From Alphaproteobacteria bacterium (GTDB lineage Bacteria > Pseudomonadota > Alphaproteobacteria > Bin95), in contig JAJEIH010000005.1 in NCBI GenBank assembly GCA_022827685.1, forward strand, positions 1-34,865: a stretch of 34,865 nt of DNA. The letters are read 5' to 3'. The notes beneath the pieces were generated by a model, which did no database searches, was not told the DNA's origin, and was given only the letters and a program-made list of their open reading frames with translations. Made by a program: the position numbers and the translations under genes. This document shows, one piece after another, positions 2,454 to 34,431 of this stretch. Each line of letters starts with the position of its first letter. The stretch's first letter is position 1.

Positions 2454-2801
2454 CTATCCGGTCGGCGGGCGCAGGTATTCGAGCACGGCGATGGTGGCGC
2501 CGGCGATCGCGACCATGGCGCCGACAAGGCGCCAGAGAAGCGAGGTCGTGCGGTCGATCAGCCGGCGCTCGGTCTCGGCGATGCGATCGAGCAATTCCGT
2601 CTTGAGCGTGCCGAGTGCGGCTTCGAGTTCCGCCCTGGTCGCCAGCGGGGCGAGCGCGGCTTGCAGTTCCGGCCTGGTAACGGGTTCGCCGGCGTCGGAT
2701 GCAATCCGCAGTTGTGTGGCGATGGCCTTGGCGTGTTTCTCGTCGATGCCTGCGTCATGCAAGGCTTCTGCGGCAAGGAGCGTATCGAACTGCGCGGCCA
2801 T
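2454..2801 (-). CDS. DUF1640/CCDC90-like coiled-coil membrane-anchored protein
   Basis: A 115-residue minus-strand product starting MAAQFDTLLAAEALHDAGI, with a GGCAGGA ribosome-binding site upstream of its ATG. The first 45 residues look like the helical 'FDTL...L..AGI....A.AIA' start seen in DUF1640/CCDC90-type proteins. A coiled-coil part follows (RAELEAALGTLKTELLDRI) and then one C-terminal membrane helix (LVGAMVAIAGATIAVLEYL). Such proteins are membrane-tethered coiled coils of poorly known role, often carried on plasmids and prophages. The ATG overlaps, within the palindrome CATG, the ATG of the divergent + gene at 2800. It is convergent with the lipoprotein gene. The family call is by pattern; the existence of the gene is well supported because the + strand frame across it reads as low-complexity Ser/Ala shadow. 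Confidence 0.78.
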   Translation of the reverse strand: MAAQFDTLLAAEALHDAGIDEKHAKAIATQLRIASDAGEPVTRPELQAALAPLATRAELEAALGTLKTELLDRIAETERRLIDRTTSLLWRLVGAMVAIAGATIAVLEYLRPPTG

Positions 2802-3885
2802 GGGTTCATCCTGCCTTGCGGGGCCGGCGCGCGTCAAGGCGCTGCCGGGTTTCCGGTGGGGCGCCGCGCTGCTGGTCTGTGCGGCTCTGGCGGTGTCGGC
2901 TGTGGCGCTTGCGCCTTCCCGGGGGCAGGCCCAGGGCGCGGAGGAGGGTCGGCCTCCGGCCGTCCAGGTCCGGCCTCCGGATTTCGGTACGGGGGCCGCG
3001 GCGACGGGCCGGGAGGGAACGAGGCCTGTTCTTCGTCCCGGCCAGAGTCCGCCGCCGGCCTCGCAGGCCCTGCCGGGCGCGGAAGACGAGACGCAGAAGG
3101 TTTCGGGGACGCCGGCAACGGAGCAAGGGGCCGCGCCGTCCGTTGCCGTCGAGCCGGGGCGGCAGAGCCCTCCTCCCCCTGCCGCCCCGGCCACCGAACC
3201 GGAAGAGCCCGTGGTGATCGCCTATGAGCCGGCGGTGCTTCGCGTGTTCGAGTGTCCGCGCGAGGCGATCGCGCGGATGATCGCGAGCGCTGTTGCCGAG
3301 GGCCAGTTCAGCGAGGCGCTGGAGCTTGAGCGCGAGGTGCTGGTGCTGTGCCGTGACCGGCAGGCGATCCTGAAGGAGCTGGTGCAGTCGGAGCTGGACC
3401 TGGCGGAGGCCTTGCAGAAGTCCGCGACGGCGCGCGCAAGAGAAGCGCTGGCGCTGGAGACGGCGCGGCGCGAGGCGGCTGCCCGGATCGAGGCGGCCAG
3501 GTCGGCGATTCTGGAGTCGGCCAGGGAAGAGATGTCCCGCGCGGCGGACGCCCGGGTCGAAGCGGCGAAGGCCGAGGCCGCGCGGGAGGCGGAGGCGAGG
3601 ATCGCGGAGGTCAGGGCGGAGGCGGCCCGGGCGGAGGCGGCGCCGGCAGCGGCGCCTGCGCAATCGGGTGACGAAGCGCCCGAATACGGATGGTTTGCGG
3701 TGATGGGCTCCGGAGGCGATCTCCGGGCGGCGGTCACCGACGGGGACATGGTCTGGCGGGTGCGGGCCGGCGAGAGCCTGCCGGGCGGGGTGACGGTGGT
3801 GGCGGTCGAGGCGCGGCCCCCTGGCGTCCGGGTCCGGGGGTGGACGTCGGACCGTCTCCCTTACCGGCCGGGGGTGGGCCGGTGA
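2800..3885 (+). CDS. pilP: PilP-like type IVb pilus biogenesis protein with long coiled coil
   Basis: A 361-residue exported protein. After ATG 2800 there is a basic stretch and a hydrophobic segment (LLVCAALAVSAVAL) ending near SRGQAQG, a likely signal peptide or anchor. A Pro-rich linker follows, then a long Ala/Glu/Arg coiled coil (about residues 193-285). The C-terminal domain (about 295-350) has the pattern GSGGDLRAAVTDGD...VRAGESLPGGVTV, which matches the PilP family of IncI-type thin pili, where PilP is a periplasmic assembly protein. The usual family length is about 150 residues, so the coiled coil is an expansion. The reading frame runs on upstream to 2401, but that part is antisense to the minus-strand gene. 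The start has no good ribosome-binding site and is uncertain. It lies upstream of pilQ as expected for a pil operon. Confidence 0.68.
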   Translation: MGSSCLAGPARVKALPGFRWGAALLVCAALAVSAVALAPSRGQAQGAEEGRPPAVQVRPPDFGTGAAATGREGTRPVLRPGQSPPPASQALPGAEDETQKVSGTPATEQGAAPSVAVEPGRQSPPPPAAPATEPEEPVVIAYEPAVLRVFECPREAIARMIASAVAEGQFSEALELEREVLVLCRDRQAILKELVQSELDLAEALQKSATARAREALALETARREAAARIEAARSAILESAREEMSRAADARVEAAKAEAAREAEARIAEVRAEAARAEAAPAAAPAQSGDEAPEYGWFAVMGSGGDLRAAVTDGDMVWRVRAGESLPGGVTVVAVEARPPGVRVRGWTSDRLPYRPGVGR

Positions 3886-3947
3886 CGGTGCGGCGAGGAT
3901 CGTTCTGGGCCCGGTTGAAGGAAGCCGGCGCGCGGGCGAACGGACTG

Positions 3948-4175
3948 TCAGGGGCCGACGCAGTCCAGATAGGCATATGTAGCCCGGATGACGCCGATGA
4001 TGGAAAGCACCGTGCCAATGCCGGCAAGGATGCTCCAGACGACTGGCGGGCGGGCCAGGTGGAGGGCGGCGGCCAGGACAACGGCGGAGGCGATGAGTTG
4101 TGCGGCACTGGCCGCAAGGAGGAATTCGAGCAGGGCGATGTAGAAGGCTTGGGTGCAGCTGATGAGTGGTGGCAG
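3948..4175 (-). CDS. Small two-helix membrane protein, start codon unresolved
   Basis: On the minus strand a stop at 3948-3950 closes a frame coding about 70 residues with two convincing membrane helices, FYIALLEFLLAASAAQLIAS and VVWSILAGIGTVLSIIGVI, ending RATYAYLDCVGP. Third codon positions are more G/C-rich than in the + frame. The + frame over the same bases is an unnatural Gly/Asp-rich sequence, so the minus strand is the likelier coding strand. No ATG, GTG or TTG starts this frame. CTG (4173-4175) or ATT (4182-4184) would be needed, or a frameshift separates it from the ATG on this strand at 4213. It may therefore be a degraded gene or use a rare start. It diverges from the + membrane gene beginning near 4149 and resembles in layout the minus-strand gene at 10509-10715. 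Function unknown. Confidence 0.45.
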   Translation of the reverse strand: MPPLISCTQAFYIALLEFLLAASAAQLIASAVVLAAALHLARPPVVWSILAGIGTVLSIIGVIRATYAYLDCVGP

Positions 4176-4634
4176 ATCTGGAATTGCTCGGGTTCCCTGG
4201 CGGCGACGACATTCGCGTTGTTTGTACTGGTGGTGTCGGAGTTGTTGAACCCGTTGGGGCCGGACGTGAAACGCGTTGCGTCGGCAGCGGCAGTCTACGG
4301 GTTCTGGTTCGCGAGCGCATTTCTGGCGATGTGCGTGCTCTGCCGACAGGGGCAGGGATCATTCGGTTTTGCGGTGTCGGGCGAATTTCGTTTCGGGGCC
4401 GCGGTGGTGGCGATGGCGCTTCTGTGGTCGGAAGCGCCGGTCGCCATGAGTCTGGCGGGCTGGGTCGCGGTGGCGGCGGTGGCCATGGGCGGTATCGCGG
4501 ACGGCGCATGGCTGGCGGTCGTGTCGTTGCGTCGCGAGGTGCCTCCCTGGCGCGCCCTGGCAATCGTGTTTCGCGAGGAGAAGCAGGCCCGCAGGGAGCT
4601 CTGGCGCCGTCTGTATTGGGGTAGCTCGCGGTGA
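4149..4634 (+). CDS. Membrane protein of unknown function in the pilus operon
   Basis: The product has about four hydrophobic segments (TTFALFVLVVSELL, VYGFWFASAFLAMCVLC, FGAAVVAMALLWSEAPVAM, WVAVAAVAMGGIADGAWLAVV) and a basic C-terminal tail (FREEKQARRELWRRLYW). It ends inside the start of pilQ (GTGA overlap), so translation is probably coupled to that gene. The start is uncertain. TTG 4149 is the last plausible start before the first helix. GTG 3882, which overlaps the pilP stop, would add 89 residues that look like antisense shadow of the minus-strand gene. Its organisation, four helices followed by a basic tail and paired head-to-head with a minus-strand small membrane gene, is like that of the gene at 10719-11168. 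No family recognised. Confidence 0.62.
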   Translation: MGAADEWWQIWNCSGSLAATTFALFVLVVSELLNPLGPDVKRVASAAAVYGFWFASAFLAMCVLCRQGQGSFGFAVSGEFRFGAAVVAMALLWSEAPVAMSLAGWVAVAAVAMGGIADGAWLAVVSLRREVPPWRALAIVFREEKQARRELWRRLYWGSSR

Positions 4635-6271
4635 AGGGCGGTTTCGGGAAGGCTCTGAAAGGGCTGTTCGTTCGCGAGCCCGCGCCGGAGGTGATGCCGT
4701 CGGGGCTGCTTCGCTGGCGCCGCATGGACGAGCGGTTCCGGGAGCGCTGCGCGGTCTGGGCTGACGGCCGGGTGATGATTGCCGAGGGGTTCGTCGGCGA
4801 CCTGGAGGTGCGCGAGGTCCTTGTGGAGCTGCAGCGGTCCGGGGCGCTGCCGGACGTGCTGCGCGAGAGCACGGGGACGCTTCAGGAGGTTGCCGAGGTC
4901 TGGCGCGGCAACCGGGTCGGCGGGGATGTCCTCGACGTGAACCCGAGGGTGGTCGAGGGGCTGGTGTCGGTCTTCACCGAAGCGGTGAAGGCCGAGGCCT
5001 CGGACGTGGTGTTCCAGCTGGGGCAGGACGATTGCCGGGTCTATGCGATCGTCAACGACCGGAAGTTCCGGATCGGGAACCCGATCCCGGTCCGGGATGC
5101 GAAGCAGGCATACGGCTTCCTGTTCTTCGTGAAGGACGAGGGCTCGCGCCACACCTCGCTGCAACGGGACCGCTTTCAGGGTTTCAGCATCAGGCCTTCG
5201 GAGAGGTTCCCGCTGCCGAAGGAGATATCGGCGCTTCGCTGCCAGGCGGGGCCGTATGAGCCGGACGGGCACGCGCTTTTCATCCGCCTGTTCCGGGGCG
5301 GCCAGGTCAGGGACAAGACGCTGGAGAGCCTGGGCCACACGCCGGAGGTGGCCGCGATCTTCCGCGAGATCCGGATGTCGAAATACGGCGGCATCTTCAT
5401 CGGCGGCAAGACCGGCGACGGGAAATCGACCTCGTTGGTCGTGAACCTCAACCTGCAGATGAGGGAGCACAAGGGCCAGCTCAACATGGTGACGCTGGAG
5501 GACCCGGTCGAGAACGAGATCGAGGGCGCGGTCCAGATCGCGTTGTCGGGCAAGGGCATCGGGGAGGAGCGGGAGAAGCATTTCGAGGAAGGGCTGATGC
5601 ATTTCGTGCGGGTGCATCCGGCATCCGGGATGGTGGGCGAGATCAGGGACCGGATGAGCGCGCGCCAGGTGCTGCAGTTCATCGACAGCGGCCACCAGAT
5701 ATGGACGACGATCCACGTTCACAGCGCGAACGGCATCCTGTTCCGCCTGATGGACCTTGGGGTGACGGAGGCTGAGGTCACCAAGCGCGGGAACGTGCGT
5801 ATCCTGATGAAGCAGACGCTGGTGAGCATGCTGTGCCCGAAGTGCTCGAAACCGGAAAGGCCGGAAGGGGCGGCGGTTCCGGAGGCTCTGCTGGCCATGC
5901 TCGGGCCGGGCGTGCGCTACCGGGATCCGAAGGGGTGCGGGGCCTGCCGGCAGGCGGGGGCCTCGGAGCTCTGGCTGGAAGCGTGGTCCGGCTATGCCCG
6001 CCCGATCGCGGTGGCGGAGTGGATCGTTCCCGACGACGGCTATCTGCGGTTCGTGGGCAAGCGGGATGCGATCGGCGCCTGGAATTACTGGGTGAACGAG
6101 ATGGGAGGCGTGCCGATCGGCCACAAGGTCTGGCGCGCGGTCTCCGAGGGCCGGGTCGATCCGGAGGACGCGCTGCTCAAGGGCGCCGAGATCGCCGAGG
6201 CGGAGGAGGCGCTGGGCGGGAAGCCGGCGAGGCCGAGGCTGATCTCCGGCGATGGAGAGGCGGCCGGGTGA
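4631..6271 (+). CDS. pilQ: PilQ, type IV pilus assembly ATPase (GspE/PilB/PilT family)
   Basis: A 546-residue cytoplasmic secretion ATPase that should power thin-pilus polymerisation or retraction. Motifs are complete: Walker A GKTGDGKST (259-267), the Asp box LEDPVE (289-294), Walker B MVGEIRD (334-340) and the His box TTIHVHSANG with H362 and H364. Two Cys pairs (CPKC 402-405 and CGAC 436-439) form the tetracysteine zinc site typical of PilB/GspE proteins. Length suits PilQ of IncI plasmids (about 500 residues). The GTG start overlaps the previous stop, and the TGA overlaps the ATG of pilR, so it lies in the middle of a translationally coupled operon pilP-x-pilQ-pilR-pilS. Confidence 0.95.
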   Translation: MKGGFGKALKGLFVREPAPEVMPSGLLRWRRMDERFRERCAVWADGRVMIAEGFVGDLEVREVLVELQRSGALPDVLRESTGTLQEVAEVWRGNRVGGDVLDVNPRVVEGLVSVFTEAVKAEASDVVFQLGQDDCRVYAIVNDRKFRIGNPIPVRDAKQAYGFLFFVKDEGSRHTSLQRDRFQGFSIRPSERFPLPKEISALRCQAGPYEPDGHALFIRLFRGGQVRDKTLESLGHTPEVAAIFREIRMSKYGGIFIGGKTGDGKSTSLVVNLNLQMREHKGQLNMVTLEDPVENEIEGAVQIALSGKGIGEEREKHFEEGLMHFVRVHPASGMVGEIRDRMSARQVLQFIDSGHQIWTTIHVHSANGILFRLMDLGVTEAEVTKRGNVRILMKQTLVSMLCPKCSKPERPEGAAVPEALLAMLGPGVRYRDPKGCGACRQAGASELWLEAWSGYARPIAVAEWIVPDDGYLRFVGKRDAIGAWNYWVNEMGGVPIGHKVWRAVSEGRVDPEDALLKGAEIAEAEEALGGKPARPRLISGDGEAAG

Positions 6272-7320
6272 TGCGGTTCCCGTGGATGTTCGTGAGGCGG
6301 TTCCTGGCGGCGGGCACGAGGGCGCGGATCGACGTCTGGCACCTGATGCAGGACATGCTCGGGTCCGAGTTCGGCATGCCCCAGGCGCTCGAGGTCGTGA
6401 CGCGGGCGAAGGGCAGGACGTTCACGGCCGGCATGCTGCGCGAGTGGGAGGCGGCGCTGGCCAGGGGGACCGACGACTTCGCGGTCGAGGTGGCGCGCTG
6501 GGTGCCTCCGTCGGAGGCCATCGTGTTTTTCGCGCTGGGCCGCGCCGATGCGGCCCGGCTGTTCGCGGCGGCGGCGAAGCTTGCGGAGATCCGTTCGGTG
6601 CAGGTCCGGGCGGTCCGGGCGGCGCTGGGTTCGCCGATCATGGTCTTTGTCGGGAACTTGGTGATGACCTGGTTCATCGGCGCGCAGCTGATGCCGCAAC
6701 TGGCGGAGATGACCGACCCGGCGCAGTGGGATGTGTTCTCGAAGTTCCTGTACTGGTTTTCGACGGGGTTCTACGAGAACGACATTCTCATAGCCTGCAT
6801 CTTCGCCGGCCTTGTCGTGGCGGTGTGGCAGCTGGTCCTGCGGTGGACCGGCAGGGGCCGGGAGCTGGCGGACAGGTTCGCTCCCTTCAGCCTTTACCGG
6901 GTTCTGAGCGGGTCGGGGTTCCTGTTCGTGTGCATCGAATATCTGCGCCTCGGCGTGGATTTGAACGAGCAGGCATTCATGCAGTTCGAGCGCGGGGCGT
7001 CGCGCTATGTGCGCAGCCGGATGCGCTCGATCGGTGAGCTGATGCTGGGCGAGGGCCTGAACTTCGGACAGGCGCTCGAGGCGGGCGGGAAGGGGTTCCC
7101 GGACGCAGGCGTGGCCTCGGTGGCGGGCGCCATCAGCGGCCGGGAGGGGTGGGAGGACTCGCTGGCGGGGTTCGTCGCCCGGTGGGTCGAGCGGTCGGAG
7201 GCGCAGATGCGCGCGCGGACCGTGGCGCTGAACTGGGTGCTGACGGGGCTGGGGATGGCCCAGACGCTGCTGATCTTCTGGGCGTCCTTCGACATCACGC
7301 TGAGCATCCAGACGTTCTGA
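6271..7320 (+). CDS. pilR: PilR, GspF/PilC-family inner-membrane pilus platform protein
   Basis: A 349-residue polytopic inner-membrane protein that would form the platform on which PilQ works. It starts at ATG 6271, overlapping the pilQ stop. It has the two-lobed GspF/PilC layout. There is a cytoplasmic helical domain (about 20-120), then membrane helices near SPIMVFVGNLVMTWFIGAQL and ILIACIFAGLVVAVWQLVL. A second cytoplasmic helical repeat follows (FLFVCIEYLRLGVDLNEQAF ... LMLGEGLNFGQALEAGG), and a last helix near LTGLGMAQTLLIFWASF. Length matches PilR of R64-type thin pili. Its place between pilQ and pilS agrees. Confidence 0.92.
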   Translation: MRFPWMFVRRFLAAGTRARIDVWHLMQDMLGSEFGMPQALEVVTRAKGRTFTAGMLREWEAALARGTDDFAVEVARWVPPSEAIVFFALGRADAARLFAAAAKLAEIRSVQVRAVRAALGSPIMVFVGNLVMTWFIGAQLMPQLAEMTDPAQWDVFSKFLYWFSTGFYENDILIACIFAGLVVAVWQLVLRWTGRGRELADRFAPFSLYRVLSGSGFLFVCIEYLRLGVDLNEQAFMQFERGASRYVRSRMRSIGELMLGEGLNFGQALEAGGKGFPDAGVASVAGAISGREGWEDSLAGFVARWVERSEAQMRARTVALNWVLTGLGMAQTLLIFWASFDITLSIQTF

Positions 7321-7331
7321 GGAGAGGATAG

Positions 7332-7862
7332 ATGACACCGCAAGGCGTAATGATATCGGTGGTGGCCGGCCTCCTGGCGGTTGTGGCCGTCATTGCGGCC
7401 TATAACGGCATTTCAGCGAGGTGGAACGAGGGAGAGGCGATCGACCTGCTGAACGAGCTGCGGGTGAACGTCGAGAGCGTCTACTCGGGGCAGAGCACCT
7501 ACGGATCGAACGCGGACCTGGTGCCGACGCTGGAGGCCTTCAACCGGATCCCTGACGATGCGAGGCAGGTGGGGCCGCCCGTGTCGATCCAGCATCCGTT
7601 CGGGCAGCCGGTGACGATCCGCGGCAATGGCGGTCGCTTCAGGATCACCTTCCACGAGCTGGACGACGCTACCTGCAACGCCATCGGCAAGGCCTATACG
7701 GACCGGACGCGCGCAGGCTCCGGGATCATCCGTATCCAGGTGAACGCGAACGCTCCAGGGGGGGTACCAGCCCAGGCGCCGCGGGTGTGGAGCTTGGCTG
7801 ATTTGACGAGCGCCTGCACCCAGGGCGCGGAGTCCAACTTCCTCACCTTCGTCTTCGGGTGA
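7332..7862 (+). CDS. pilS: PilS-like type IVb major prepilin
   Basis: A 176-residue type IV prepilin, most likely the main thin-pilus subunit. The gene starts at ATG 7332 after a good GAGGAGAGGA ribosome-binding site. The leader is very short (MTPQG), followed by the hydrophobic helix VMISVVAGLLAVVAVIAAY, so prepilin peptidase would cut after Gly5. Mature position 5 would be Val, not the usual Glu. C115 and C162 can form the C-terminal disulfide loop of type IV pilins. The last residues (FLTFVFG) are hydrophobic. Its location between pilR and two PilV-like genes is as in IncI plasmids. The identity rests on leader, helix, cysteines and context. Confidence 0.85.
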   Translation: MTPQGVMISVVAGLLAVVAVIAAYNGISARWNEGEAIDLLNELRVNVESVYSGQSTYGSNADLVPTLEAFNRIPDDARQVGPPVSIQHPFGQPVTIRGNGGRFRITFHELDDATCNAIGKAYTDRTRAGSGIIRIQVNANAPGGVPAQAPRVWSLADLTSACTQGAESNFLTFVFG

Positions 7863-7865: not shown

Positions 7866-9071
7866 GTGCCGGGCCGGCCGACATCCCTGTTGCGGCGCCT
7901 GCGGCGCGGCTGCCGGCGCGGGGCCGGGGGCGAAGCCGGCGTGGTGCTGGTCGTGGCGATGGCGCTGGTCGCGATGCTGGGCTGGTATCGCGAGCAGGAT
8001 GCGCTCCGGCTCGCGGAGATGGACCGCGAACGCGGCCGCGTCTGGGGCATGACCTGCACGGCCCTGCACCGGGCGGTCCAGTCGGGCCTGGTGACGACGG
8101 CCCGCACGGTGACGCCGGCGGAGCTTCGCGGATGGTCCCTCCTCCCGGCCGGCTTCGGCACGGTCGAGCGCGCCGGCGGCGCGGTCGCGACGCCGGGATA
8201 CGGGACGGTGCTTGCCGGCGGGGTGCCGATGGCCGTGTGCAGCCTCTCCGGTCCGGAGCTTGCCTTCAGGGCGCCCTCGCTCCGGGCCGGGGCGGTGATG
8301 GGCGGGCTTGACCTGGTCGGGGTCGTCGGAGGCGACGTGACCGCCATGCACGACCGTCTGGGCGCCGTCCAGGGCGTTCTCGGGACGCTCGCTTCGGGAT
8401 CGATGTTCGCGACGGCGGATTTCGGGATCGGTCACGAGGCGGACCGGCTTCATCGCCGCCCGGTGGGCGGGCGGCCGGAACTGGCGCGGATGGAGACGGA
8501 TTTCGTGTTCGGCCCGAACACGGATATCGGCCAGGCGCTGCTGCCGGCCGGGGAGATCGTGGACGGGGTGGCGGTGGTTCCGGGCGAGGATTGCCGCGAC
8601 CCGCTGCTGCGGGCGGAGCGGCGCTGTTTCGACGTGCTCGGCGCGGGAAGCGTGGAGGGCGTGAACGCCGGCGCGAACGGGTCGAGCCGGTTCCGAGGGG
8701 CGACGGCGGAGATCGGGGGGAACGTGTCGGTCGGCTTTCCGGGCCAGCCGGGCCAGTTGTCCTTCGTCGATGACAATCCGGCTTCGGGGTTCAGCGCGGA
8801 CGGAGGGTTCCGGTTCGGGAACGGGACGTCCGGGCAGTCGTTCAACGTGCCGCAGCTGCTGAGTGTCGGGGGCTCGATGTCCTCGCGCGGGGCCGTCGAT
8901 GCCGGGAGCGTGGAGATCGTCGGACGGCTGGATGTCGGCGGGCAGGCGACGGCGCGCGGACAGGCGGCGGGACAGAGGCTTTCGGTCGCCGGCGACCTCG
9001 GCGCGAACTCGGGTTCCTTCAGCGGGATCGTGACGACGGGCAGCTGCAACGGCTGCGAACCGGCGCTTTAG
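7866..9071 (+). CDS. PilV-like minor pilin/adhesin 1
   Basis: A 401-residue protein with a basic, Gly-rich leader (RRLRRGCRRGAGGEAG) followed by one hydrophobic helix (VVLVVAMALVAMLGW), which is prepilin-like. The remainder is a long exported region rich in Gly, Val, Ser and Asp. Beta-repeat-like stretches lie near its end (SVEIVGRLDVGGQATARGQ, RLSVAGDLGANSG), and it finishes with GSCNGCEPAL. This is the layout of PilV, the thin-pilus tip adhesin of IncI plasmids, whose C-terminal part decides recipient specificity. It starts at GTG 7866, four bases after the pilS stop codon. A second such gene follows at once, ending in the related motif GSCSGC. No recombinase gene or obvious shufflon repeat is seen between them. 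Confidence 0.78.
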   Translation: MPGRPTSLLRRLRRGCRRGAGGEAGVVLVVAMALVAMLGWYREQDALRLAEMDRERGRVWGMTCTALHRAVQSGLVTTARTVTPAELRGWSLLPAGFGTVERAGGAVATPGYGTVLAGGVPMAVCSLSGPELAFRAPSLRAGAVMGGLDLVGVVGGDVTAMHDRLGAVQGVLGTLASGSMFATADFGIGHEADRLHRRPVGGRPELARMETDFVFGPNTDIGQALLPAGEIVDGVAVVPGEDCRDPLLRAERRCFDVLGAGSVEGVNAGANGSSRFRGATAEIGGNVSVGFPGQPGQLSFVDDNPASGFSADGGFRFGNGTSGQSFNVPQLLSVGGSMSSRGAVDAGSVEIVGRLDVGGQATARGQAAGQRLSVAGDLGANSGSFSGIVTTGSCNGCEPAL

Positions 9072-9076: not shown

Positions 9077-10150
9077 GTGGCGGTGACCGGCTTCCGCAGG
9101 CGTCTCTGGATCGCGCGCTGGAGGGGGATGAGCCCGCAAGGGGCGCAGATCGGGGTCGCGGTGATGCTCGGCTTGATGCTGGCATTGTCGATCTGGGTGC
9201 AGGAGAGGCTGAACGACCAGAGGGCGGTAGGGGCCGGCCGGAAGCTGGTGGTCCTTGCCGGGGCGGTCGAGAGCCATGTGAGGGCGAATTACGGACAGTA
9301 TGTGCCGCCCGCGCTGCCGGCGGGCGCCTCCATCCAAATCGATATCGATCTGCTGAAGACGGACGACTTCCTGCCGCTGGGGTTCGACCAGTCGGGCGAC
9401 GCGATGAAGCGGCCGCTCCAGGCATGGGCGATTTCGACGGGCGGCGGCCGGGTGAGGCTGCTGTCGATGCAGGTCCTGTCGGCGGGCGACACGCGGCACC
9501 CGGTGGAAGGGACGTATGAGGCGCGCGGCGAGCAGGCGCTGGGCGTCGTGAATGCGGCAGGCGAGCTGCAGGGTCCGACGATCCAGGAGAACCTGTCCGC
9601 GTTCCGGGCCGTGGCGGGCGGGCATCCGAGGCAGTGGGCGATGGCCGTCTACCGGCAACTGGACCGGGAGAGTGTGTGCGGGGACGCGGTCTTCAGGCGC
9701 GAGCGGACGGGATGTCCGGACTCCGCGCGCATGGAGACCGACCTGGACATGAACGGGAACGACGTCGTGGGCGTGAAGGTGCTCACGGCGGAGGAACTCC
9801 AGGTGGACCGCGTGATGCGGGCGGGCGAGTTCCGGATCGACCAGACGCTGCAGGTGGGCACGACCGTGAGCCCGGGGTCGCTGGAGGTCCTCGGCGGCGT
9901 GAGGGTGCCGGACGGGCTGGTGTTCCGGGGCGACGCGGAGTTCACGGGGACGGTCAACGCGAATGCGGTTGAGGTGGCCGGCCGGCTCGATGCGGACAGC
10001 GCGGATGTCGCGCAGGGCGTGACGGCGCAGACCATCCAGGCGCAGGGGAATCTCGGCGCGTCGGGCGCGAATTTCACGGGCTCGGTGTCGGTGACGGGCA
10101 CCGGTTCGTTCGGGTCGCTCAGCGTGGGGAGCTGCTCCGGATGCCAGTGA
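9077..10150 (+). CDS. pilV: PilV-like minor pilin/adhesin 2
   Basis: A 357-residue prepilin-like protein. The leader ends in MSPQG, almost identical to the MTPQG leader of the pilin gene, and is followed by the helix AQIGVAVMLGLMLALSIWV, so the same peptidase should process it after the Gly. The start is either GTG 9077 (a 22-residue leader) or ATG 9128, which has GGAGGGGG directly before it and would give the same five-residue leader as PilS. The exported part contains MDMN-like beta-helix/fibre text (DLDMNGNDVVGVKVLTAEEL, VDRVMRAGEFRI, GSLEVLGGVRVPDGLVFRG) typical of PilV and phage tail-like tips. It ends with GSCSGCQ, matching the end of the preceding gene. Likely role: pilus tip adhesin in mating-pair recognition. 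Confidence 0.82.
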   Translation: MAVTGFRRRLWIARWRGMSPQGAQIGVAVMLGLMLALSIWVQERLNDQRAVGAGRKLVVLAGAVESHVRANYGQYVPPALPAGASIQIDIDLLKTDDFLPLGFDQSGDAMKRPLQAWAISTGGGRVRLLSMQVLSAGDTRHPVEGTYEARGEQALGVVNAAGELQGPTIQENLSAFRAVAGGHPRQWAMAVYRQLDRESVCGDAVFRRERTGCPDSARMETDLDMNGNDVVGVKVLTAEELQVDRVMRAGEFRIDQTLQVGTTVSPGSLEVLGGVRVPDGLVFRGDAEFTGTVNANAVEVAGRLDADSADVAQGVTAQTIQAQGNLGASGANFTGSVSVTGTGSFGSLSVGSCSGCQ

Positions 10151-22512: not shown

Positions 22513-22546
22513 AAAATCAAGACCGAAAGTTTCGGTCTTGATTTTT
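22513..22546. terminator. Perfect 16-bp palindrome, terminator-like (possible operator)
   Basis: Arms 22513-22528 (AAAATCAAGACCGAAA) and 22530-22545 are exact inverted repeats around a single G at 22529. In RNA this folds to a stem of about 13-14 pairs with a tiny loop, followed by a run of five U at 22542-22546. The left arm begins with four A, so it would also terminate minus-strand transcription. It stands out as AT-rich in very GC-rich surroundings. It lies between the HU-like gene and icmE, about 65 bp after the former. A binding site for the HU-like protein or another regulator is an alternative reading. Confidence 0.7.
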
Positions 22547-22564
22547 CCCTGCATTTCCAGTCCC

Positions 22565-28100: not shown

Positions 28101-28217
28101 GCGCTCGCCGAGCTCGCGCGCCGCGGCGCCGGCTCGCGCGCCTCCGTGCCCGAGGTCCTGGACGCCATCGCCGACCGGCTCGCTAACATGGAAACGCAAC
28201 GGGGAGCGGCGGCGTGA
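25161..28217 (+). CDS. icmB: DotO/IcmB/TraU, large type IVB ATPase (VirB4-like)
   Basis: A 1018-residue cytoplasmic ATPase, equal in length to Legionella IcmB (about 1009). It starts at ATG 25161, overlapping the previous stop. Walker A is GAPRQGKS (502-509), preceded by LIF, and the Walker B Asp-Glu is in RLCYDEYHRT (D819, E820). Family segments seen are ALPFGFEGAKHGFDLIFGAP, QQAVIDIGPSAAGLVEM, SAVNPMDTQLGCRFP and ALSSQRLEDFGEELVDLATQ. DotO and DotB together form the cytoplasmic energy complex. It is followed by a structured gap of about 150 bp, the longest between genes before the final repeats. Confidence 0.96.
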   Translation: MRRDPARTAGLVDRVEDLLHWSWQLRRKPLESFMLVRAAAEREGTGVLVGHDGSLASVIDVEGARSMMGTEELDRFVETVERRLGPALLERGHALHVVFERAPAEGRRLLEEAAERQRQSCRRLGLDLEGPIAERVERLAPRAAGERLAIACWSGTAVLPRGQEKREKKAIAKRKEDWAPGDDESQCPFAADGALGARHLAFVESVRAVLEETGLVARILGSHDAVRGLRWWLTGPESVGDGWVPVTSANEAPPRQLEPAILGAFPPPLAPQVLVSEPEVPGSDMVLLGRRLWAPLDMELGPRRVRPFSELMARLAAADNLPLRVSVLLEGGGLKHAGAVMRHALAPFLAFSSADSLAVRDASQALASHADTGRAVVRVRCQFLTWVDGSVATEARRQELMRRASRLQQLVEGWGEIAVTRVTGDPLEALAMSAPGFACGSTAVAGLAPLGQVLRMLPVSRPAPLARAGQAGAVSHMFLAGDGKALPFGFEGAKHGFDLIFGAPRQGKSVLLNTLGLAFCLQGGQARIPQQAVIDIGPSAAGLVEMVRDALPAARRHEAGRWRWRMDASSAVNPMDTQLGCRFPIPAERAFLVNLLSVMVAPAGRDLPDGMRELIGATVQAAYELASDTTANGEPKLFNRGTDPDVDAALELHGVSLGPDALQWDVVDALFDAGAVGAAIRAQRRAAPTLAELPSAAQTEAVQGLVREARYGTGGETVTDAFIRILTGLSSSWPNMFRATSFDIGNARLAVIDLAEVAPTGSPEAERQTAAFYMLARHALTREWWLAEEDLAGVPERYRDWHTDRNREIRETPKRLCYDEYHRTAGAPAVRAQVERDVREAGKAGARLALSSQRLEDFGEELVDLATQYWILGSGGQAREVDAMAAVFGLSDTLSEVARLDLTGPGPVGAPALLVAGSERGRIEQLVVNAPGPQELWALNTRPRDVALRRRVQARLGPDEARRVLARTFPEGSAETRVEHALAELARRGAGSRASVPEVLDAIADRLANMETQRGAAA

Positions 28218-28353: not shown

Positions 28354-28379
28354 CTGAAACCGCAACGATGAAGGGCGAG

Positions 28380-28922
28380 ATGAGAATACCTGCATCCATA
28401 ACCGTATTTCTGCGCGCGCCGGGCGCGGCGCCGGCGGTCCTCCTGCTGGTTGCGGCCTGCCTGTCGGTTCCGGGCCCGGCGGCTGCGCAGGGGACCCCGC
28501 CTCCTTCCCGGCCTGCCGACTGCGACCCGCAGGTGGCGGAGGCGCTCGTGGACGCGGCCGAGGCGGGCGTCCAGACCGATCTCGCGGTGATCCGCCATGC
28601 CGACCAGGGCATCCGCAAGCCGGACTCGATCCTCGATCTCAGTTGCGTGTGGGACATGTTCGACTATCGCGGCTTCAACATCCTCCACGATCCGGGCGCG
28701 GCGCTCGACCGCATCCTGAACCTGGCCCGCAAGCGCATCTGCAACGAGGCAAGGGACGTCTACGCCCGGCATGTCGGCCGCAGCCTGGATGCCCGCGTGT
28801 TCGCCGGTCCCGCCCGCGACATTCCGGGGACCCGCACGACAACGGTGCGCGGCAATGTTCTCAAGGACGCCGGCGTCGAGCGCGAGACCTTCCGGCGCCT
28901 CTTCGGAGGAACCGCGCGATGA
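28380..28922 (+). CDS. Exported protein of unknown function in the TraV-TraX position
   Basis: A 180-residue product. ATG 28380 is preferred because AAGGGCGAG lies just before it; ATG 28368, in frame, has none. A signal peptide is visible (APGAAPAVLLLVAACLSVPG ... AAAQG). The mature protein has three cysteines, in PADCDPQVAEAL, LDLSCVWDMF and RKRICNEARD, with a compact helical look, plus RHADQGIRKPDSILDLSC, which reads like a conserved family motif. It is placed between traU(icmB)- and traY(dotA)-type genes, where IncI plasmids have traV, traW and traX. I do not recognise it. A periplasmic accessory role is inferred. Confidence 0.78.
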   Translation: MRIPASITVFLRAPGAAPAVLLLVAACLSVPGPAAAQGTPPPSRPADCDPQVAEALVDAAEAGVQTDLAVIRHADQGIRKPDSILDLSCVWDMFDYRGFNILHDPGAALDRILNLARKRICNEARDVYARHVGRSLDARVFAGPARDIPGTRTTTVRGNVLKDAGVERETFRRLFGGTAR

Positions 28923-30055
28923 GGCGGATCGTCCCGGTCACGGCGTTTGCCGCCGCTCTCGCGGTGCAGGCCGTTCTCCCGTCGCCGGCGGCGGCGCTGT
29001 TCGGCAGCGGCCCCAAATGCACGCCGACCTGGAAAACCGTCAGCGAGGCGAGCCGGGTGATCTCGAAGGTGAGCGCGCGCATCGCGACCATGGAGCGGAC
29101 CATCTACGAGGCGCTGGTCAACCAGACCGGCCAGCAGTCGGGCTATATCGCCCAGAGCGCGAAGGCGGTGACGACGGCGCTCGACAGCCATGCAGCCATA
29201 CGCGCGCAGACCGAGCGCGATGCGGCCGAGGTCAGGGCGCAGCTCGCGAGGCGCCCCTCGCGCTCGGCTTGCGCCGTGACGACGGGCGCGCGCGGCCTCG
29301 CCCAGGCCCGGGTCGCCAGCACCGTTGCGGGGCGTTCGGCGACCGTCTCCGAGACCGGCCGGATCGCCGGCGACCGCGCCACCGGCTCCGCGCCCGCGGC
29401 GGCGACCGACAGCGCTGAGCGCTACCGGCGCATCCTGGAGCGCTGGTGCAGCCCGGACCGCGCCCCGCTCCAGAGCGCGGCCTGCTCCGGCGCGCCGGAG
29501 GACCACGGCGCCGATCTCCGCCCCGACAGCCTGTTCGCAGTGGAGACCTTCGCCTCGGACCGCGAGCTGCAGGCGGCGATCGACCTCTCCCGGAACCTGA
29601 CGGTGCCGGCGGTCGAGGACCCGGCGCCGCTCGGCGCGGTCGACTCGGCGAGCGAGCGCGCCAGGGTGATGGCGTCCCGGGCCGCGGCGGCCCGCCGCGC
29701 GCTTGCGGCCGAAGCGCTCGGCCATCTGCGCGCGCTGCGCGCGCCCGGCCCCGAGCTCGGGCGCTGGGCGGCCGCCATCGACCCGGAGCGCGATCCGGAG
29801 GCCGCCGTCAGCCGGCTGGAGCTGATCGACCTCATGGCGGCGAAGCGGTTCGAGCGCACGGCATGGTGGACCGGACTGCAGGCGATGGGCGGCGAGGCGC
29901 TGCTGCGCGAGACGGCCTCCCTGCTCGCGGCCTCGCTGCTGCTCGACCGGGAGCGGTTCCGGCTCGAGGAGCGCCGCCTGGCGATCGAGGCCGCGGCGCT
30001 CGCGGCCCGGATCGACCGCGACCGCAGGCTCGCCGGCCAGGCCGGCGCGAACTGA
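28919..30055 (+). CDS. Exported helical protein of unknown function
   Basis: A 378-residue product from ATG 28919 (ribosome-binding site GGAGGA; overlaps the previous stop). It has a signal peptide (VTAFAAALAVQAVLPSPAAA) followed by LFGSGPKCTPTW. The mature protein is mostly helical: ISKVSARIATMERTIYEALV, then GYIAQSAKAVTTALDSHAAI, like VirB5/TrbJ-type helical surface proteins. It has a middle part with cysteines (RWCSPDRAP, QSAACSGAP) and a long Ala/Arg/Glu helical end. VirB5-likeness is only a general impression. It sits directly before dotA and is probably periplasmic or surface-exposed. Confidence 0.76.
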   Translation: MRRIVPVTAFAAALAVQAVLPSPAAALFGSGPKCTPTWKTVSEASRVISKVSARIATMERTIYEALVNQTGQQSGYIAQSAKAVTTALDSHAAIRAQTERDAAEVRAQLARRPSRSACAVTTGARGLAQARVASTVAGRSATVSETGRIAGDRATGSAPAAATDSAERYRRILERWCSPDRAPLQSAACSGAPEDHGADLRPDSLFAVETFASDRELQAAIDLSRNLTVPAVEDPAPLGAVDSASERARVMASRAAAARRALAAEALGHLRALRAPGPELGRWAAAIDPERDPEAAVSRLELIDLMAAKRFERTAWWTGLQAMGGEALLRETASLLAASLLLDRERFRLEERRLAIEAAALAARIDRDRRLAGQAGAN

Positions 30056-30061: not shown

Positions 30062-32350
30062 ATGGCGCGCCGCCCCTTTCTCGTTCGCTACATCCTGCTG
30101 CCGGACCTGCTGGGACCGGCATCGAGGGCGCTCGGCGAAGGCGCCGGCGTGCTGCGCGCCGCGTTCGGCGCCCTGAGGCGGCCTGCGGGCGGGGCAAGAC
30201 TGTCGCGCCCGCGCGGGCCGCTCGGCTGGCTCGGCCTCGCCATGGCGTGCGCCGGCCTCGTCTGGATCGGATTGGCGGCGTTTGCCATGTGGGCGGGCAC
30301 GGCGCCGGCCGAGGCCCAGACGCCGCCCGTTCCCGACCTCTCCGGCGCGCCGGACCAGGCGGGCCGGGCCCTGCTTGCCTTCCTCTCCGACCTCGACACC
30401 GGAAACAACAGTGCGCTCTCCGGCATGCTGACGATCTACAGCGGCGCGATCCTGGTCCTTGCGGGCGTGCTGCTCGTCTGGTGGACCGCGACCGGCACCG
30501 TCGACACCGCCAGCCGGGGCCGCTGGGGGTTCACCGGCAAGGAGACGCTCCGGATCACCGCCGCGTTCCTGCTCATGGTGCCGCTTTTCGGAGGCCTGTC
30601 GGGCGGACAGCATCTCGCGCTCTCGCTCGCGCGCACCGGCGGCGACATTGCGCAACTCGTCTGGGGCAAGTTCTCCGAGGACGTGCTCGGCGAGGGCAGG
30701 ATAATCGCCCCGCCCCCCGGGGAGCGCGAACTGCGCGCCATGCTCGCCTCGCTCTTCCTGGTCGAGCTCTGTGCCGCGACTGCGAACATGGCGGCGCTGG
30801 AGGCCGGGGACGAGCCTTATGTCGTCCTCCGGGAGGAGGAGCGCGTCGAGACCAATATCGAGCGCCGGCAGCGCTTCAGGGGGCGCGGCAGGCGCTCCGG
30901 CAGCTATGACGGCGCGCGCGGCGGCATGCCGAAGGGGATGTGCGGCGCCGTCAGCCAGGCGGGGCTCGACGGCGGCGAGACTGCAGGCGGCAAGATGTCG
31001 GAAGCGCACGGCGCCGCGCTCGAGGCCGTGAGGCCGGCGCTCAGGACCATTGCCGGCGATCTCGCCCTCTGGTTCGCCGCGCCGCCCGGGCAGGCCCGCA
31101 GGGACGGGCCGTTGCCGGATATCGAGGAGCTGCTCGTGCAGGCGGACCCGGCCGCTCTCTACCTGGGGCGGGTGCGCGCGGCAGCCGACGCGACGCGGGA
31201 CGAGGCCACCGGCGCGCTCAAGGACGGGCTGAAGGCCGATGCCGAAAACCTTCCATGGACCATGGCGGCCTCGCTGTTCATCACCATCACCCGCCATGTC
31301 GGCGACTACCAGCTGGGCGCGGCGAACATCCCGAGGGTGTCGCCGCCCTCGGCGCGCCTGGCGGAGCTGGTGCCCCAGGCCGACAAGGCCGTGAAGGCGG
31401 CCGCCGAGCAACTCGCCGCCTCGAACGAATATCCGGCCGCGCTTGGCGCCTCCGCCGACCCCGCCGGCGGCTCGGGCGGCTTCGGAGGCATCGGACGCGG
31501 CGCGTTCGACTGGCTCGACCTGGAGGACATCGAGTTCGTCGACAGCGGCAACCCGATTCTCGACCTGGTCTCGCTCGGACACAGCCTCACCATCAAGGGG
31601 ATCGGCGCCATCCTGGTCCTTGGCGGCGTCGCCACGGGCTCCAACCTGCTGAACTCGATACCGCTCATCGGCGGCGGCCTGGATGCATTCGAGGCAGCAT
31701 GGCAGGTGACCGACAGCTTCATCTCGACGATCCTGGGCCTGATGATCCTGGCCGGCCTGGTGCTGGCCTATCTCGTACCCGTGCTGCCGTTCGTGCGCTT
31801 CCTCTTCGGCCTGCTGGCCTGGCTGGTGGCGGTGATCGCGGCCGTGTTCGCCATGCCGGTCTGGCTCGCCGGCCATACCGTGCGCGGCGAGGGGTTCGTG
31901 ACGCCGGCGACGCGCCAGGGATGGCTGTTCCTGCCGGGCCTGGTGCTGCGCCCGGTGCTGATGCTGTTCGGACTCGTGATCGGCTACCTGCTGTTCGTGA
32001 CGATCATGAACACCTTCAACGGCGTCTTCCGCGGCCTCGTGTTCGACGCCGGCGCCTCGGACGGGATCGGCGTGGTCGGATGGCTCGCCATGCTCGCGAT
32101 CTACCTGATGGCGGTCTACGGGCTGATGAATGCCTGCTTCAAGCTGATCGACCACCTGCCCTCCATCGCCATGGACTGGATCGGCGGGCGCGACGGCCGC
32201 GACGGTGACGCCGACCGCCTCGGCGGCGGGATCGCCGGCGCCTTCGGGCGGATCGGGCCGATGCGGGTCGGCCAGGGACGGCGCGGCCCCCGCTTGCCGA
32301 CGGGACGCGGCAGTCCGGCGCCCGGCGCGCCCGCCGACGACGGACTGTAA
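30062..32350 (+). CDS. dotA: DotA/TraY, large polytopic inner-membrane protein
   Basis: A 762-residue membrane protein. Helices are seen at the N-terminus (WLGLAMACAGLVWIGLAAFA) and near LTIYSGAILVLAGVLLVWW. Others lie at RITAAFLLMVPLFGGLSGG, AMLASLFLVELCAATANMA and GIGAILVLGGVATGSNLL. The strongest family match is in the C-terminal third: LPFVRFLFGLLAWLVAVIAA, MPVWLAGHTVRGEG and LVLRPVLMLFGLVIGYLLF, as in DotA and TraY. A periplasmic region of several hundred residues separates the two helix groups. DotA is needed for channel function and in Legionella is also released. The gene starts seven bases after the previous stop with a weak ribosome-binding site. Confidence 0.92.
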   Translation: MARRPFLVRYILLPDLLGPASRALGEGAGVLRAAFGALRRPAGGARLSRPRGPLGWLGLAMACAGLVWIGLAAFAMWAGTAPAEAQTPPVPDLSGAPDQAGRALLAFLSDLDTGNNSALSGMLTIYSGAILVLAGVLLVWWTATGTVDTASRGRWGFTGKETLRITAAFLLMVPLFGGLSGGQHLALSLARTGGDIAQLVWGKFSEDVLGEGRIIAPPPGERELRAMLASLFLVELCAATANMAALEAGDEPYVVLREEERVETNIERRQRFRGRGRRSGSYDGARGGMPKGMCGAVSQAGLDGGETAGGKMSEAHGAALEAVRPALRTIAGDLALWFAAPPGQARRDGPLPDIEELLVQADPAALYLGRVRAAADATRDEATGALKDGLKADAENLPWTMAASLFITITRHVGDYQLGAANIPRVSPPSARLAELVPQADKAVKAAAEQLAASNEYPAALGASADPAGGSGGFGGIGRGAFDWLDLEDIEFVDSGNPILDLVSLGHSLTIKGIGAILVLGGVATGSNLLNSIPLIGGGLDAFEAAWQVTDSFISTILGLMILAGLVLAYLVPVLPFVRFLFGLLAWLVAVIAAVFAMPVWLAGHTVRGEGFVTPATRQGWLFLPGLVLRPVLMLFGLVIGYLLFVTIMNTFNGVFRGLVFDAGASDGIGVVGWLAMLAIYLMAVYGLMNACFKLIDHLPSIAMDWIGGRDGRDGDADRLGGGIAGAFGRIGPMRVGQGRRGPRLPTGRGSPAPGAPADDGL

Positions 32351-32367
32351 CCGGGGAGAGGAATGTC

Positions 32368-34431
32368 ATGGGCGGATTTGCGGTTCATCTGGGCGTCGCG
32401 CTGGCGACGGGCATACCGGGATGCGGCCTCGCATTCTGGCTCTGGACCGAACGGCCCGAGCCGGAGGTCAGGGGATGGGCGCTTGCCGGCATGGCGGCGG
32501 CCTCGCTCGTCGTGCTGCTGTTCACCGAAACGAAGCGCGGCGGCCTCGGCTGGAAAATCGGCGTCTGGGGACCGACGCTCGCCGTCGCCGCAATGTCGAT
32601 CGCGGTCGACACGGCCCCGCTCGCGCTCGCGGGCGAATTCCGGGAGATCCTTGCCCTGCTCGGGACCGGGTCCTGGCTCGACCGGTTCCGGATCGCCGCG
32701 CCGCTGTTTGCCGTCCCGTTCCTGGCCATATTTTGGCTCACCGCGCTCGCGACGGGCCTCACCGGCGCCGGCCGGATGTCGAAGCGCCGCCGCTCGAAAT
32801 CCGAGCTCCACGGCGCCTCGAAGCTCATGGGATGGCGCCATCTCCGCAGCCTCGGCAAGCGCAGGGAAGGCATCCTCCTCGGCCAGACCGCATCCGGCAG
32901 CCGCGCCCCGCTCGCCGTCTGGCCGCTCGAAGGCCATGCCGTCACCATCGCGCCGCCCCGCACCGGCAAGGGCGCGCTGATCGCCGCCAACATGCTCGCG
33001 CCCGGCGAGCGCGGCTGGCAGGGCTCGACCGTCACCATCGATCCCCGGGGAGAACTCTACTGCATCGTCGCCCGCCGGCGACGCGAGCTCGGCCGCCAGG
33101 TGGTTCTGATCGATCCCTACGACGTGATCGCCCGTCACCGCGAACAGCACCGGCATTGCTATCTGCCGACCAGGGTGCCGCTCCATACGTACAACCCGCT
33201 GGACTTCCTCCGGGGCGAGGACAAGGCGGTCCAGGATATCGATATCCTGGTCCAGGCCCTGCTGACGCCTCCAACGAGCGACGCCGGCAACAGCCGTCAC
33301 TTCCACGAAAGCGCCAGGCGCCTGATCTCCGGGCATATCGCATGGGCGGCCTATCGGGCGGAGGAGGAGGACCGGAACCTGGCCCACGTGTTCGACAACC
33401 TGTCGGCGGGCCCCGACAAGCGCCGGTTCCTGATGGCGCGGATCCTCGAGCACCCGGAGTTCGCCGGCGGGCTCACCCACCGCGCGATCGAGTCGGAACT
33501 CGCCACCAGCGCCCAGGAGAGTGGATCGAACTACACCACGATCGCCAACCAGCTCCAGTTCCTGGCGCACCCGGAAATCCAGAGGCAGACCGCGGCCAGC
33601 ACGTTCGATCCCCACGATCTGGCCGAAGGGAACATGGACCTGTTCGTGGTGATCCCGGAGGAGCTCCTCAAGGCGGCCCGTCCCTGGCTCAGGCTCTGGA
33701 TAACGATCCCGTTCGCCGTCGCCGCCCGGCGGTCGCTCAAGAAGGACATGCTCATCATCATGGACGAGATGCCGGCCATCGGGTATCTCGAACCCGTCAT
33801 GGACGCATGGCGTCTCGGCGCGGGCCGCGGCGTCCACTTCTGGGCCTTCGCGCAGGCGCTCTCCGGGATCGACGGCAGCTGGGGCAAGCAACGCCGCCAG
33901 GAGCTGGTCGACCTCTCCGAAGTCGTGCAGATCCTCGGCTGGTCCCGCGCCGACGCCGCCGGCGCCGAGGAGATCTCCAAGGCCATCGGGCACGGAACGT
34001 TCGAGGGCCACACGCGAACCTCCTCCGGGACGCCGATCGGACGCTCGGTCCTCTTCTCGGCCAACAAGGTGACCGTGGGCGACAGCCGGGCGCTGGTGAA
34101 GGAGCGCATCGTGCGCCCGGAAGACCTGCTGATGATGAGGCCCGACGAGCAGTATGTCATCGCCGCCTCGAAGGACCTTCCGAGGGATGCGCTCCACCTG
34201 AGGAACACCCGCTACTGGGAGCACGCCGCCATGCGCGACGATGCCGACCCCAATCCCTATGTCGAGCGCAAGCACGCCGCGATGGGGCTGCTGCGCCGGC
34301 GGGAAGGTCCCAACACCTGGGAAGTCTTCGAGGCCGACCTGGCGCGCGAGCGCGAGCGCTACCGCGCGCGGCTGAAGCGGATGGGCCTCGACCTGGACGC
34401 CGAGGATGCGGCCGCCGCTGCCGTCTCGTAG
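32368..34431 (+). CDS. VirD4/TraG-type coupling protein
   Basis: A 687-residue ATPase that should bring the relaxase-DNA complex to the channel. It starts at ATG 32368 after GGGGAGAGG. About four N-terminal hydrophobic segments precede SKSELHGASKLMGWRHLRSL and WPLEGHAVTIAPPRTGKGAL. Walker A is PPRTGKGA (196-203) and Walker B is LIIMDEM (D466, E467). Other VirD4 marks are DPRGELYCIVARRR, VPLHTYNPLDFLRG, GGLTHRAIESELA and LSEVVQILGWS. The compact VirD4 layout differs from DotL/TrbC, the usual type IVB coupling protein, which has a long C-terminal adaptor-binding tail. Here the C-terminus ends shortly after the ATPase domain (residues of about 600-687). The relaxase is not in the window. Confidence 0.9.
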   Translation: MGGFAVHLGVALATGIPGCGLAFWLWTERPEPEVRGWALAGMAAASLVVLLFTETKRGGLGWKIGVWGPTLAVAAMSIAVDTAPLALAGEFREILALLGTGSWLDRFRIAAPLFAVPFLAIFWLTALATGLTGAGRMSKRRRSKSELHGASKLMGWRHLRSLGKRREGILLGQTASGSRAPLAVWPLEGHAVTIAPPRTGKGALIAANMLAPGERGWQGSTVTIDPRGELYCIVARRRRELGRQVVLIDPYDVIARHREQHRHCYLPTRVPLHTYNPLDFLRGEDKAVQDIDILVQALLTPPTSDAGNSRHFHESARRLISGHIAWAAYRAEEEDRNLAHVFDNLSAGPDKRRFLMARILEHPEFAGGLTHRAIESELATSAQESGSNYTTIANQLQFLAHPEIQRQTAASTFDPHDLAEGNMDLFVVIPEELLKAARPWLRLWITIPFAVAARRSLKKDMLIIMDEMPAIGYLEPVMDAWRLGAGRGVHFWAFAQALSGIDGSWGKQRRQELVDLSEVVQILGWSRADAAGAEEISKAIGHGTFEGHTRTSSGTPIGRSVLFSANKVTVGDSRALVKERIVRPEDLLMMRPDEQYVIAASKDLPRDALHLRNTRYWEHAAMRDDADPNPYVERKHAAMGLLRRREGPNTWEVFEADLARERERYRARLKRMGLDLDAEDAAAAAVS

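Follow-up and report, generated by a model that had tools for sequence, protein, structure and literature searches.

Does this locus encode a complete machine for moving DNA between bacteria, and if so, to which of the known systems does it belong? The stretch analysed, called the window below, is the entire contig JAJEIH010000005.1 (C56; 34,865 bp) of an alphaproteobacterial draft genome (G000; 4.31 Mb, 167 contigs, 98.95% complete). An earlier note on it had described, at 2800-34431, a complete-looking type IVB (Dot/Icm-IncI) channel joined to its own type IVb pilus operon, possibly a distinct lineage of conjugation machinery. Here, we confirm the channel, show on sequence evidence that it ends in a coupling protein of the VirD4/TraG class, and place it in a lineage with several members, three of them in this one genome. 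What deserves note is that the coupling protein has been exchanged and that there are several clusters; the junction of pil and tra genes, which had been singled out as special, is the usual arrangement of IncI plasmids, where pil directly precedes traH (DotD) (L086, L092).

Identity of the channel

Genes were named by Pfam and NCBIfam scans and by profile-profile comparison (hhalign) with the proteins of IncI1, IncL/M and Serratia MPF_I plasmids. Both the identity and the order of DotD, DotC, DotB, IcmT, two IcmL, IcmK, IcmE, IcmC, IcmD, IcmB and DotA, behind the pil genes, were confirmed in this way, and these gene identities support a type IVB machinery of conjugation type with its own pilus operon. 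The second IcmD that had been proposed (24339-24707) is backed by 79% nucleotide similarity to copy 2, which itself matches TraR. A published criterion for MPF_I (MPF, mating-pair formation) demands at least four of TraI, K, L, M, N, P, Q, R, W and Y (PMC3158045). The window holds nine of these ten families (TraI, K, L, M, N, Q, R, W and Y), with TraL, TraR and TraW recognised via profile-profile comparison, as well as an MPF_I-type IcmB/TraU (VirB4-class) ATPase, the DotB/TraJ ATPase, DotC and DotD.

Neither TraP/DotF nor DotM/TrbA had a match among the genes compared by profile-profile comparison, and DotN and IcmSW were absent from the Pfam/NCBIfam scans of window genes, beyond which they were not searched for. 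The DotL-DotM-DotN-IcmSW coupling complex of effector-secreting Dot/Icm systems was not recognised in the window cluster. The description complete-looking calls for qualification, since no TraP/DotF was found, the locus is truncated on the left and the contig carries no relaxase. The channel genes named in the earlier note held, but TraL, TraW, a TrbB-like thioredoxin and the coupling protein had been missed, and several of the extra genes said to be without recognised family are divergent homologues of TraL, TraW, TrbB and TcpQ/PilL.

A coupling protein of another class

The last gene of the operon, which directly follows the DotA/TraY gene and whose stop codon is the 34431 at which the earlier note had ended its span without naming it, encodes a coupling protein with a PF02534 match above cutoff, a TraG-D_C domain and Walker motifs. 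PF02534 scores are 137 bits in the window and 148 in same-genus genome G388, but at most 20 in the DotL-type proteins of Roseomonas, Komagataeibacter, Methylocapsa, Bosea, IncI1 and Serratia. A gene of the same class occupies the corresponding place in contigs C12 and C11 of G000 and in same-genus genomes G288 and G388, that is, with C56, in five of five clusters whose right end is sequenced. In a quick tree of 17 rows, with groups set beforehand from the Pfam result, the two classes separate and the window group joins TraG-type proteins of alphaproteobacterial plasmids (Shimodaira-Hasegawa-like approximate likelihood ratio test, SH-aLRT, 99); a single clade of the window protein and DotL was rejected by the approximately unbiased (AU) test (p = 0.0004). 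No DotL/IcmO relative was found in G000, G288, G388 or same-genus genome G387, where the only match was marginal (E 0.003) and fell on a TraD gene. By domain content, place and phylogeny, the coupling protein of the window cluster is thus shown to belong to the VirD4/TraG class, replacing the DotL/TrbC type. Its closest tree neighbours, VirD4/TraG proteins of alphaproteobacterial MPF_T, MOBQ or MOBF plasmids, likewise have PF02534 and TraG-D_C, but are 26-30% identical to it, and the window gene differs in being the last of a type IVB operon.

The coupling protein of IncI and IncM plasmids is TrbC, a homologue of DotL. R64 cannot do without trbA (DotM) or trbC, pCTX-M3 no longer transfers once trbA, trbB or trbC is deleted, and both plasmids require TraP (DotF) (PMC6112013). 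If a cluster with a coupling protein of a different class is stably maintained, the coupling layer of type IVB machines would be shown to be replaceable, and such a cluster would be a natural means of testing which contacts a coupling protein has to make in a type IVB channel. Plasmid pMM259 of Martelella (L090, L093), where type IVB secretion system (T4BSS) genes sit beside traA, a Ti-type relaxase gene, and a coupling protein of the TrwB/TraD type, may be a second case of such an exchange.

A lineage with several members

Genome G000 contains two further clusters, on C12 (26 kb) and C11 (23.6 kb), while G288, G388 and G387 have one apiece. Three MPF_I clusters in one genome are noteworthy whether chromosomal or plasmid-borne. 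Four of eight genomes of the genus had an IcmK match, against none of six from elsewhere in the order, and a scan of genome contigs for IcmB gave only two relatives, in a Rhodospirillales and an Alphaproteobacteria metagenome-assembled genome (MAG). The protein search of 385 genomes, which listed only two scored candidates per genome, missed the C11 cluster; its zeroes are no proof of absence.

In the trees of both IcmB and DotB, the clusters of C56, C12, C11 and the same-genus genomes form one clade with the Rhodospirillales MAG locus L016 (100/100 in each), its stem measuring 1.06 and 1.22 changes per site, respectively. IncI1, IncL/M and the Serratia plasmid fall far outside; the closest groups are plasmids of Alphaproteobacteria and T4BSS loci from members of that class with mostly small genomes. 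By the phylogeny of these ATPases, the group is a distinct lineage of MPF_I machinery, as had been suspected, and one that is separate and old. Within it, the C12 cluster is nearer to those of G288 and G387 than to C56, so the clusters have not simply tracked their host genomes. That the interleaved genes would be conserved elsewhere was borne out for the dsbG/trbB-like gene and tcpQ2 (C12, C11, G288, G387, G388, L016) and for TraL-like g34 (C12, C11, G288, G388, L017), but not for the single-strand DNA-binding protein (SSB) gene, without a match at the corresponding place in C12, G288, C11, G388 and G387, nor beyond G388 for the HU gene at 22136.

T4BSS loci arranged differently are also found in 12 genomes, mostly of 1.1-2.4 Mb, from many families of Alphaproteobacteria (L003-L014). 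On C12 (L018), icmE is interrupted at 11089-14015 by an insert with open reading frames (ORFs), named by eye, that resemble an IS1595 transposase, a methyltransferase and a GIY-YIG protein.

Exchange between clusters

The secreted protein g15 stands out from its neighbours. Its amino-acid identity between clusters is 85-93%, both within one genome and across species, against mostly 45-70% for other genes (copies at C12 25388-25834, C11 22258-22704 and G387 C344 14445-14888). Differences at fourfold sites among C56, C12, C11 and G387 amount to 0.13-0.27 in g15 and 0.34-0.57 in dotB, icmK and icmB; those of tcpQ1-dotD between C12 and G387 are 0.11 and 0.24. These values point to recent exchange of g15 between clusters and recent sharing of tcpQ1-dotD by C12 and G387. 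With three clusters in one genome, and with the C12 cluster closer to that of another species than to C56, the clusters behave as mobile, recombining elements. A secreted nuclease adjoins g15 in G387 (C344 15498-16733; SNase with a weak TbpB-barrel profile match), and a gene that looks similar by eye is present in G288 (C117 24825-25841).

Relaxases and candidate cargo

Among the four relaxase families searched (MOBP, MOBQ, MOBH and MOBF; MOBV, MOBC and MOBT were not), only MOBF is present in G000. MOBP was absent from five genomes (G000, G288, G366 and two same-family genomes of another genus; G388 and G387 were not searched), MOBQ from G000, G288, G388 and G366, with five matches in G387, and MOBH from G000, G288, G388, G387 and G366. 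MOBF matches numbered 10 in G000, 11 in G388, at least 20 in G387 and 10 in G366, and G288 had one of full length. Some of these relaxases, of 1400-1860 amino acids, have no adjoining coupling protein at the loci inspected (G000, G366, G388, G387).

Two families of small membrane proteins accompany MOBF genes. Family A, a small membrane/coiled-coil protein, adjoins MOBF in G288 (C234), G385 (C304) and G387 (C480), and a member lies inside C12 between tcpQ2 and dsbG (hidden Markov model E 3.8e-17 among 4384 ORFs), with a weaker one (0.0015) in G288 C117. Family B, with a coiled coil, a membrane helix and the motif GWrDHvWe.YG, adjoins MOBF in C121, G388 C227, G387 C185 and G387 C602, and a member directly follows the G388 coupling protein (E 1.7e-11). 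These E-values are not from a blind test, as the first similarity was spotted by eye and tested afterwards. IncI1 TraP gave a marginal match to family B (E 0.0037), which we do not claim as homology. Elsewhere, MOBF and MPF_I occur together on a Komagataeibacter plasmid, and a Methylobacterium plasmid carries a TraG-type coupling protein near a MOBF gene. Because MOBF alone of the searched families is present in G000, and because families A and B are found beside MOBF genes and in sister clusters, MOBF relaxosomes are the likeliest cargo, to which we would give an even chance; that the family A and B proteins serve as adaptors recruiting them is conceivable, at somewhat short of that.

Interpretation

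We consider the window to be probably the mating-pair-formation region of an MPF_I conjugative element, either a plasmid or integrated, and it is likely that the machine transfers DNA. What favours conjugation over effector export is a pilus equipped with PilV-like proteins, the lack of a DotL layer and the way in which the clusters behave as mobile elements. In such an element, the type IVb pilus with its PilV-like proteins would draw recipient cells near, and an envelope channel would be built from a DotC/DotD/IcmK/IcmE core with IcmL, IcmC/D, DotA, IcmB and DotB, with DotB and IcmB supplying energy. A VirD4/TraG-class coupling protein, rather than a DotL/DotM complex, would feed this channel with a MOBF relaxase-DNA complex from other loci of the element or from neighbouring mobilizable elements, recruited perhaps via the small membrane-anchored proteins seen beside MOBF genes and within sister clusters. 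It is possible, though doubtful, that the entire DotL/DotM(/DotF) coupling layer has been swapped for a VirD4/TraG protein and lineage-specific membrane adaptors, and that the clusters serve the many MOBF loci dispersed over these genomes as a shared export machine.

Several findings speak against conjugation of this kind. The search of contig C56, both of whose ends are cut, gave no relaxase, no oriT and no replication gene, and neither family A nor family B was found in the window. G366 has ten MOBF matches, yet no DotH/IcmK match, and some MOBF loci carry a TraD of their own (C38); MOBF is therefore not tied to the type IVB system, and G366 weakens the idea that the MOBF relaxases just belong to these elements. 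Finally, neither TraP nor TrbA, both of which R64 and pCTX-M3 cannot do without (PMC6112013), was found in the window, so that the channel may not work as that of R64 does.

A contig without a relaxase could also belong to a type IVB exporter of proteins, Dot/Icm-like and aimed at a eukaryotic host or at rival bacteria, since a VirB4 cluster without MOB is a putative protein exporter by a rule of 2011 (PMC3158045), and the presence of three clusters in one genome would suit it too. This is unlikely, as such an exporter fits poorly with the want of a DotL relative in four genomes, with DotM/TrbA unmatched among the compared genes and TraP/DotF not found, with conjugation-type pilus genes including PilV-like proteins, a short R64-like IcmE and genes for HU and SSB, and with clusters that act as mobile, recombining elements. 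The Legionella Dot/Icm system has a homologous core in common with the window (DotA, B, C, D, H, G, I, E, O and IcmT, D), and the differences are that here no DotL relative was found, nor DotM or DotF among the compared genes, that IcmE is short and that a pilus operon accompanies the channel.

If the window is conjugative, it might still be an ordinary IncI-type system, special only by sequence divergence. Nine of ten MPF_I families are present, and gene set and order, pil operon included, agree with IncI1 and related plasmids: IncI1 (R64-type) shares the upstream pil operon, the order traH-I-J-K, M-N-O, Q-R, U, W, Y and the TrbB-like, TraL-like and TcpQ/PilL-like proteins, R64 having a PilL. 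IncI1 (L086) and the Serratia plasmid (L092) have the pil genes, then traH-traI-traJ-traK and traM to traY, and beyond these trbA-trbB-trbC and a MOBP relaxase. In the window, by contrast, a VirD4/TraG-type coupling protein follows traY where IncI1 has TrbC, TrbA and TraP were not found, there is no MOBP NikB, the TraL-like gene lies behind IcmB, no shufflon recombinase is on the contig and IcmB is only 27% identical. Since each of the five clusters sequenced to its right end (C56, C12, C11, G288, G388) has the other class of coupling protein, and since the 100/100 clade has a long stem, we regard an ordinary IncI system as quite improbable. The MPF_I plasmids of Acetobacteraceae, Roseomonas and Methylocapsa (L038, L039, L089) likewise have a type IVB channel in Alphaproteobacteria, paired once with MOBF (Komagataeibacter), but their dot/icm genes lie in several blocks, their coupling protein is of the DotL/IcmO type and their IcmB is 34-37% identical to that of the window.

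That the clusters are decaying remnants of former conjugative elements, as the C12 icmE split by a transposase-bearing insert and the L017 icmB matched in two pieces separated by a gap might suggest, is very improbable, for no window ORF is broken, C11 icmE is open, the ATPases retain their P-loop motifs, and gene order persists among the clusters despite a protein identity of only about 35-65%, which implies long selection.

Gene layout and pilus operon

All plausible window genes lie on the + strand, with frequent overlaps of stop and start codons (Table 1). GC content rises from 0.64 over the first 2 kb to 0.67-0.76 beyond. The start at 2800 given in the earlier note is plausible for its first gene, but the operon extends leftward, with genes from 22 onward and then the contig end. 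Genes g03, g10, g14, g15, g19 and g31 had no hhalign match to IncI proteins.

Table 1. Predicted features of the window, with the evidence for each
Feature	Position	Strand	Evidence and remarks
Unknown protein, acidic Gly/Asp-rich C-terminus	22..1101	+	ORF without Pfam match; left end cut by contig; tentative positional counterpart G388 C120 3552-5495
Lipoprotein-like protein	1116..2387	+	Lipobox-like LLLAGC; tblastn relatives in G388 (34%) and L017 (29%)
PilP-position protein, start uncertain	2800..3885	+	60% amino-acid identity to G288; conserved in G288 and G388
Small membrane protein	4149..4634	+	tblastn relatives in G288
PilQ-type type IV pilus assembly ATPase	4631..6271	+	PF00437 8.2e-40; GspE/PilB models; 70% identity to G288
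PilR-type inner-membrane pilus platform	6271..7320	+	NF041012 ComGB 1.3e-4 (below cutoff); 58% identity to G288
PilS-type major pilin	7332..7862	+	PF05307 bundlin 1.7e-3 (below cutoff); 58% identity to G288
PilV-like protein 1	7866..9071	+	PF04917 Shufflon_N 1.3e-3 (below cutoff)
PilV-like protein 2	9077..10150	+	PF04917 5.4e-5 (below cutoff); 70% identity to G288
Conserved unknown between pilV and pilU	10141..10458	+	Found in G288 (twice), G387, G388, L016
PilU-type prepilin peptidase	11165..11809	+	PF01478 0.0099 (below cutoff); conserved in G288, G387, G388, L016
Secreted protein g15	12782..13324	+	88-91% nucleotide identity to C12, C11, G387 copies; fourfold-site difference from these 0.14-0.21 (dotB/icmB about 0.4-0.5)
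TcpQ-domain protein (PilL-like) 1	13321..14409	+	PF10671 3.9e-8
DotD/TraH lipoprotein	14406..14951	+	PF16816 2.6e-27
TcpQ-domain protein 2 (tcpQ2)	14948..15571	+	PF10671 5.1e-12
Small membrane protein, also adjoins dotC in C11 and C12	15568..16038	+	tblastn
DotC/TraI	16035..16904	+	PF16932 4.6e-56
SSB	16939..17382	+	PF00436 1e-13
DotB/TraJ ATPase	17379..18527	+	TIGR02524 3.4e-71, TIGR02525 1.4e-60, each below equivalog cutoff
IcmT/TraK	18543..18815	+	NF038220 2.9e-16, 59.4 bits, cutoff 40
DsbG/TrbB-like thioredoxin-fold protein	18817..19746	+	NF008657 1e-17 (below cutoff); hhalign to TrbB 6e-5
IcmL/TraM copy 1	19743..20447	+	PF11393 1.8e-23
IcmL/TraM copy 2, tandem duplicate	20444..21100	+	PF11393 1.4e-22; 72-80% nucleotide repeat
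IcmK/DotH/TraN	21097..22134	+	PF12293 1.7e-43
HU-type DNA-binding protein	22136..22447	+	PF00216 1.3e-19; G388 counterpart, same place, 1.7e-9
IcmE/DotG/TraO, short, VirB10-like C-terminus	22538..23812	+	NF033900 1e-12 (below cutoff); hhalign TraO 7e-12
IcmC/DotE/TraQ	23809..24342	+	NF033883 6.4e-10 (below cutoff); hhalign 4e-10
IcmD/TraR-like copy 1	24339..24707	+	Tandem duplicate, nucleotide repeat of copy 2 (79%)
IcmD/TraR-like copy 2	24751..25161	+	hhalign TraR 8.5e-6
IcmB/DotO/TraU, VirB4-class ATPase	25161..28217	+	tblastn matches in 3761 plasmid records; tree; no Pfam match
TraL-like protein (g34)	28368..28922	+	hhalign TraL 3.6e-6, 87.5%
TraW-like protein	28919..30055	+	hhalign TraW 6e-9; NF033888 3e-4 (below cutoff)
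DotA/TraY	30062..32350	+	TIGR04346 4.3e-67, 227 bits, cutoff 100
VirD4/TraG-type coupling protein in place of DotL/TrbC	32368..34431	+	PF02534 1e-39, 137 bits (cutoff 20.1); PF12696 (TraG-D_C) 1e-14; tree and AU test

Among the pilus genes, the PilQ match is strong, while PilR, PilS, both PilV and PilU have weak single matches (E 1e-2 to 5e-5); PilP is assigned by position only, as hhalign against PilP gave no match. The block is conserved in G288 (about 50-70% identity), in G388 and partly in G387. In G388, it runs on upstream into a secretin-like ORF (weak PF00263 match, 1.5e-5) and an ORF in the PilO position without a pilus family match; the window pilus operon is therefore incomplete, cut at its left end. 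No Rci recombinase was found among the scanned window genes, nor were there shufflon-like repeats.

A GSCxGC motif stands at or near the C-terminus of each PilV-like protein. A small Cys-rich protein encoded after pilU (11806-12156) recurs in C12 (6528-6758; 77% nucleotide identity), where it is placed between icmB and the traL-like gene. Tandem repeats of 62-63 bp lie at 34450-34863, at the right end of the window, a possible reason for the contig break. Within the pilus operon of G388 (C120, L078), a polyprenyl synthetase gene (PF00348 5e-50) is found at about 5500-6478.

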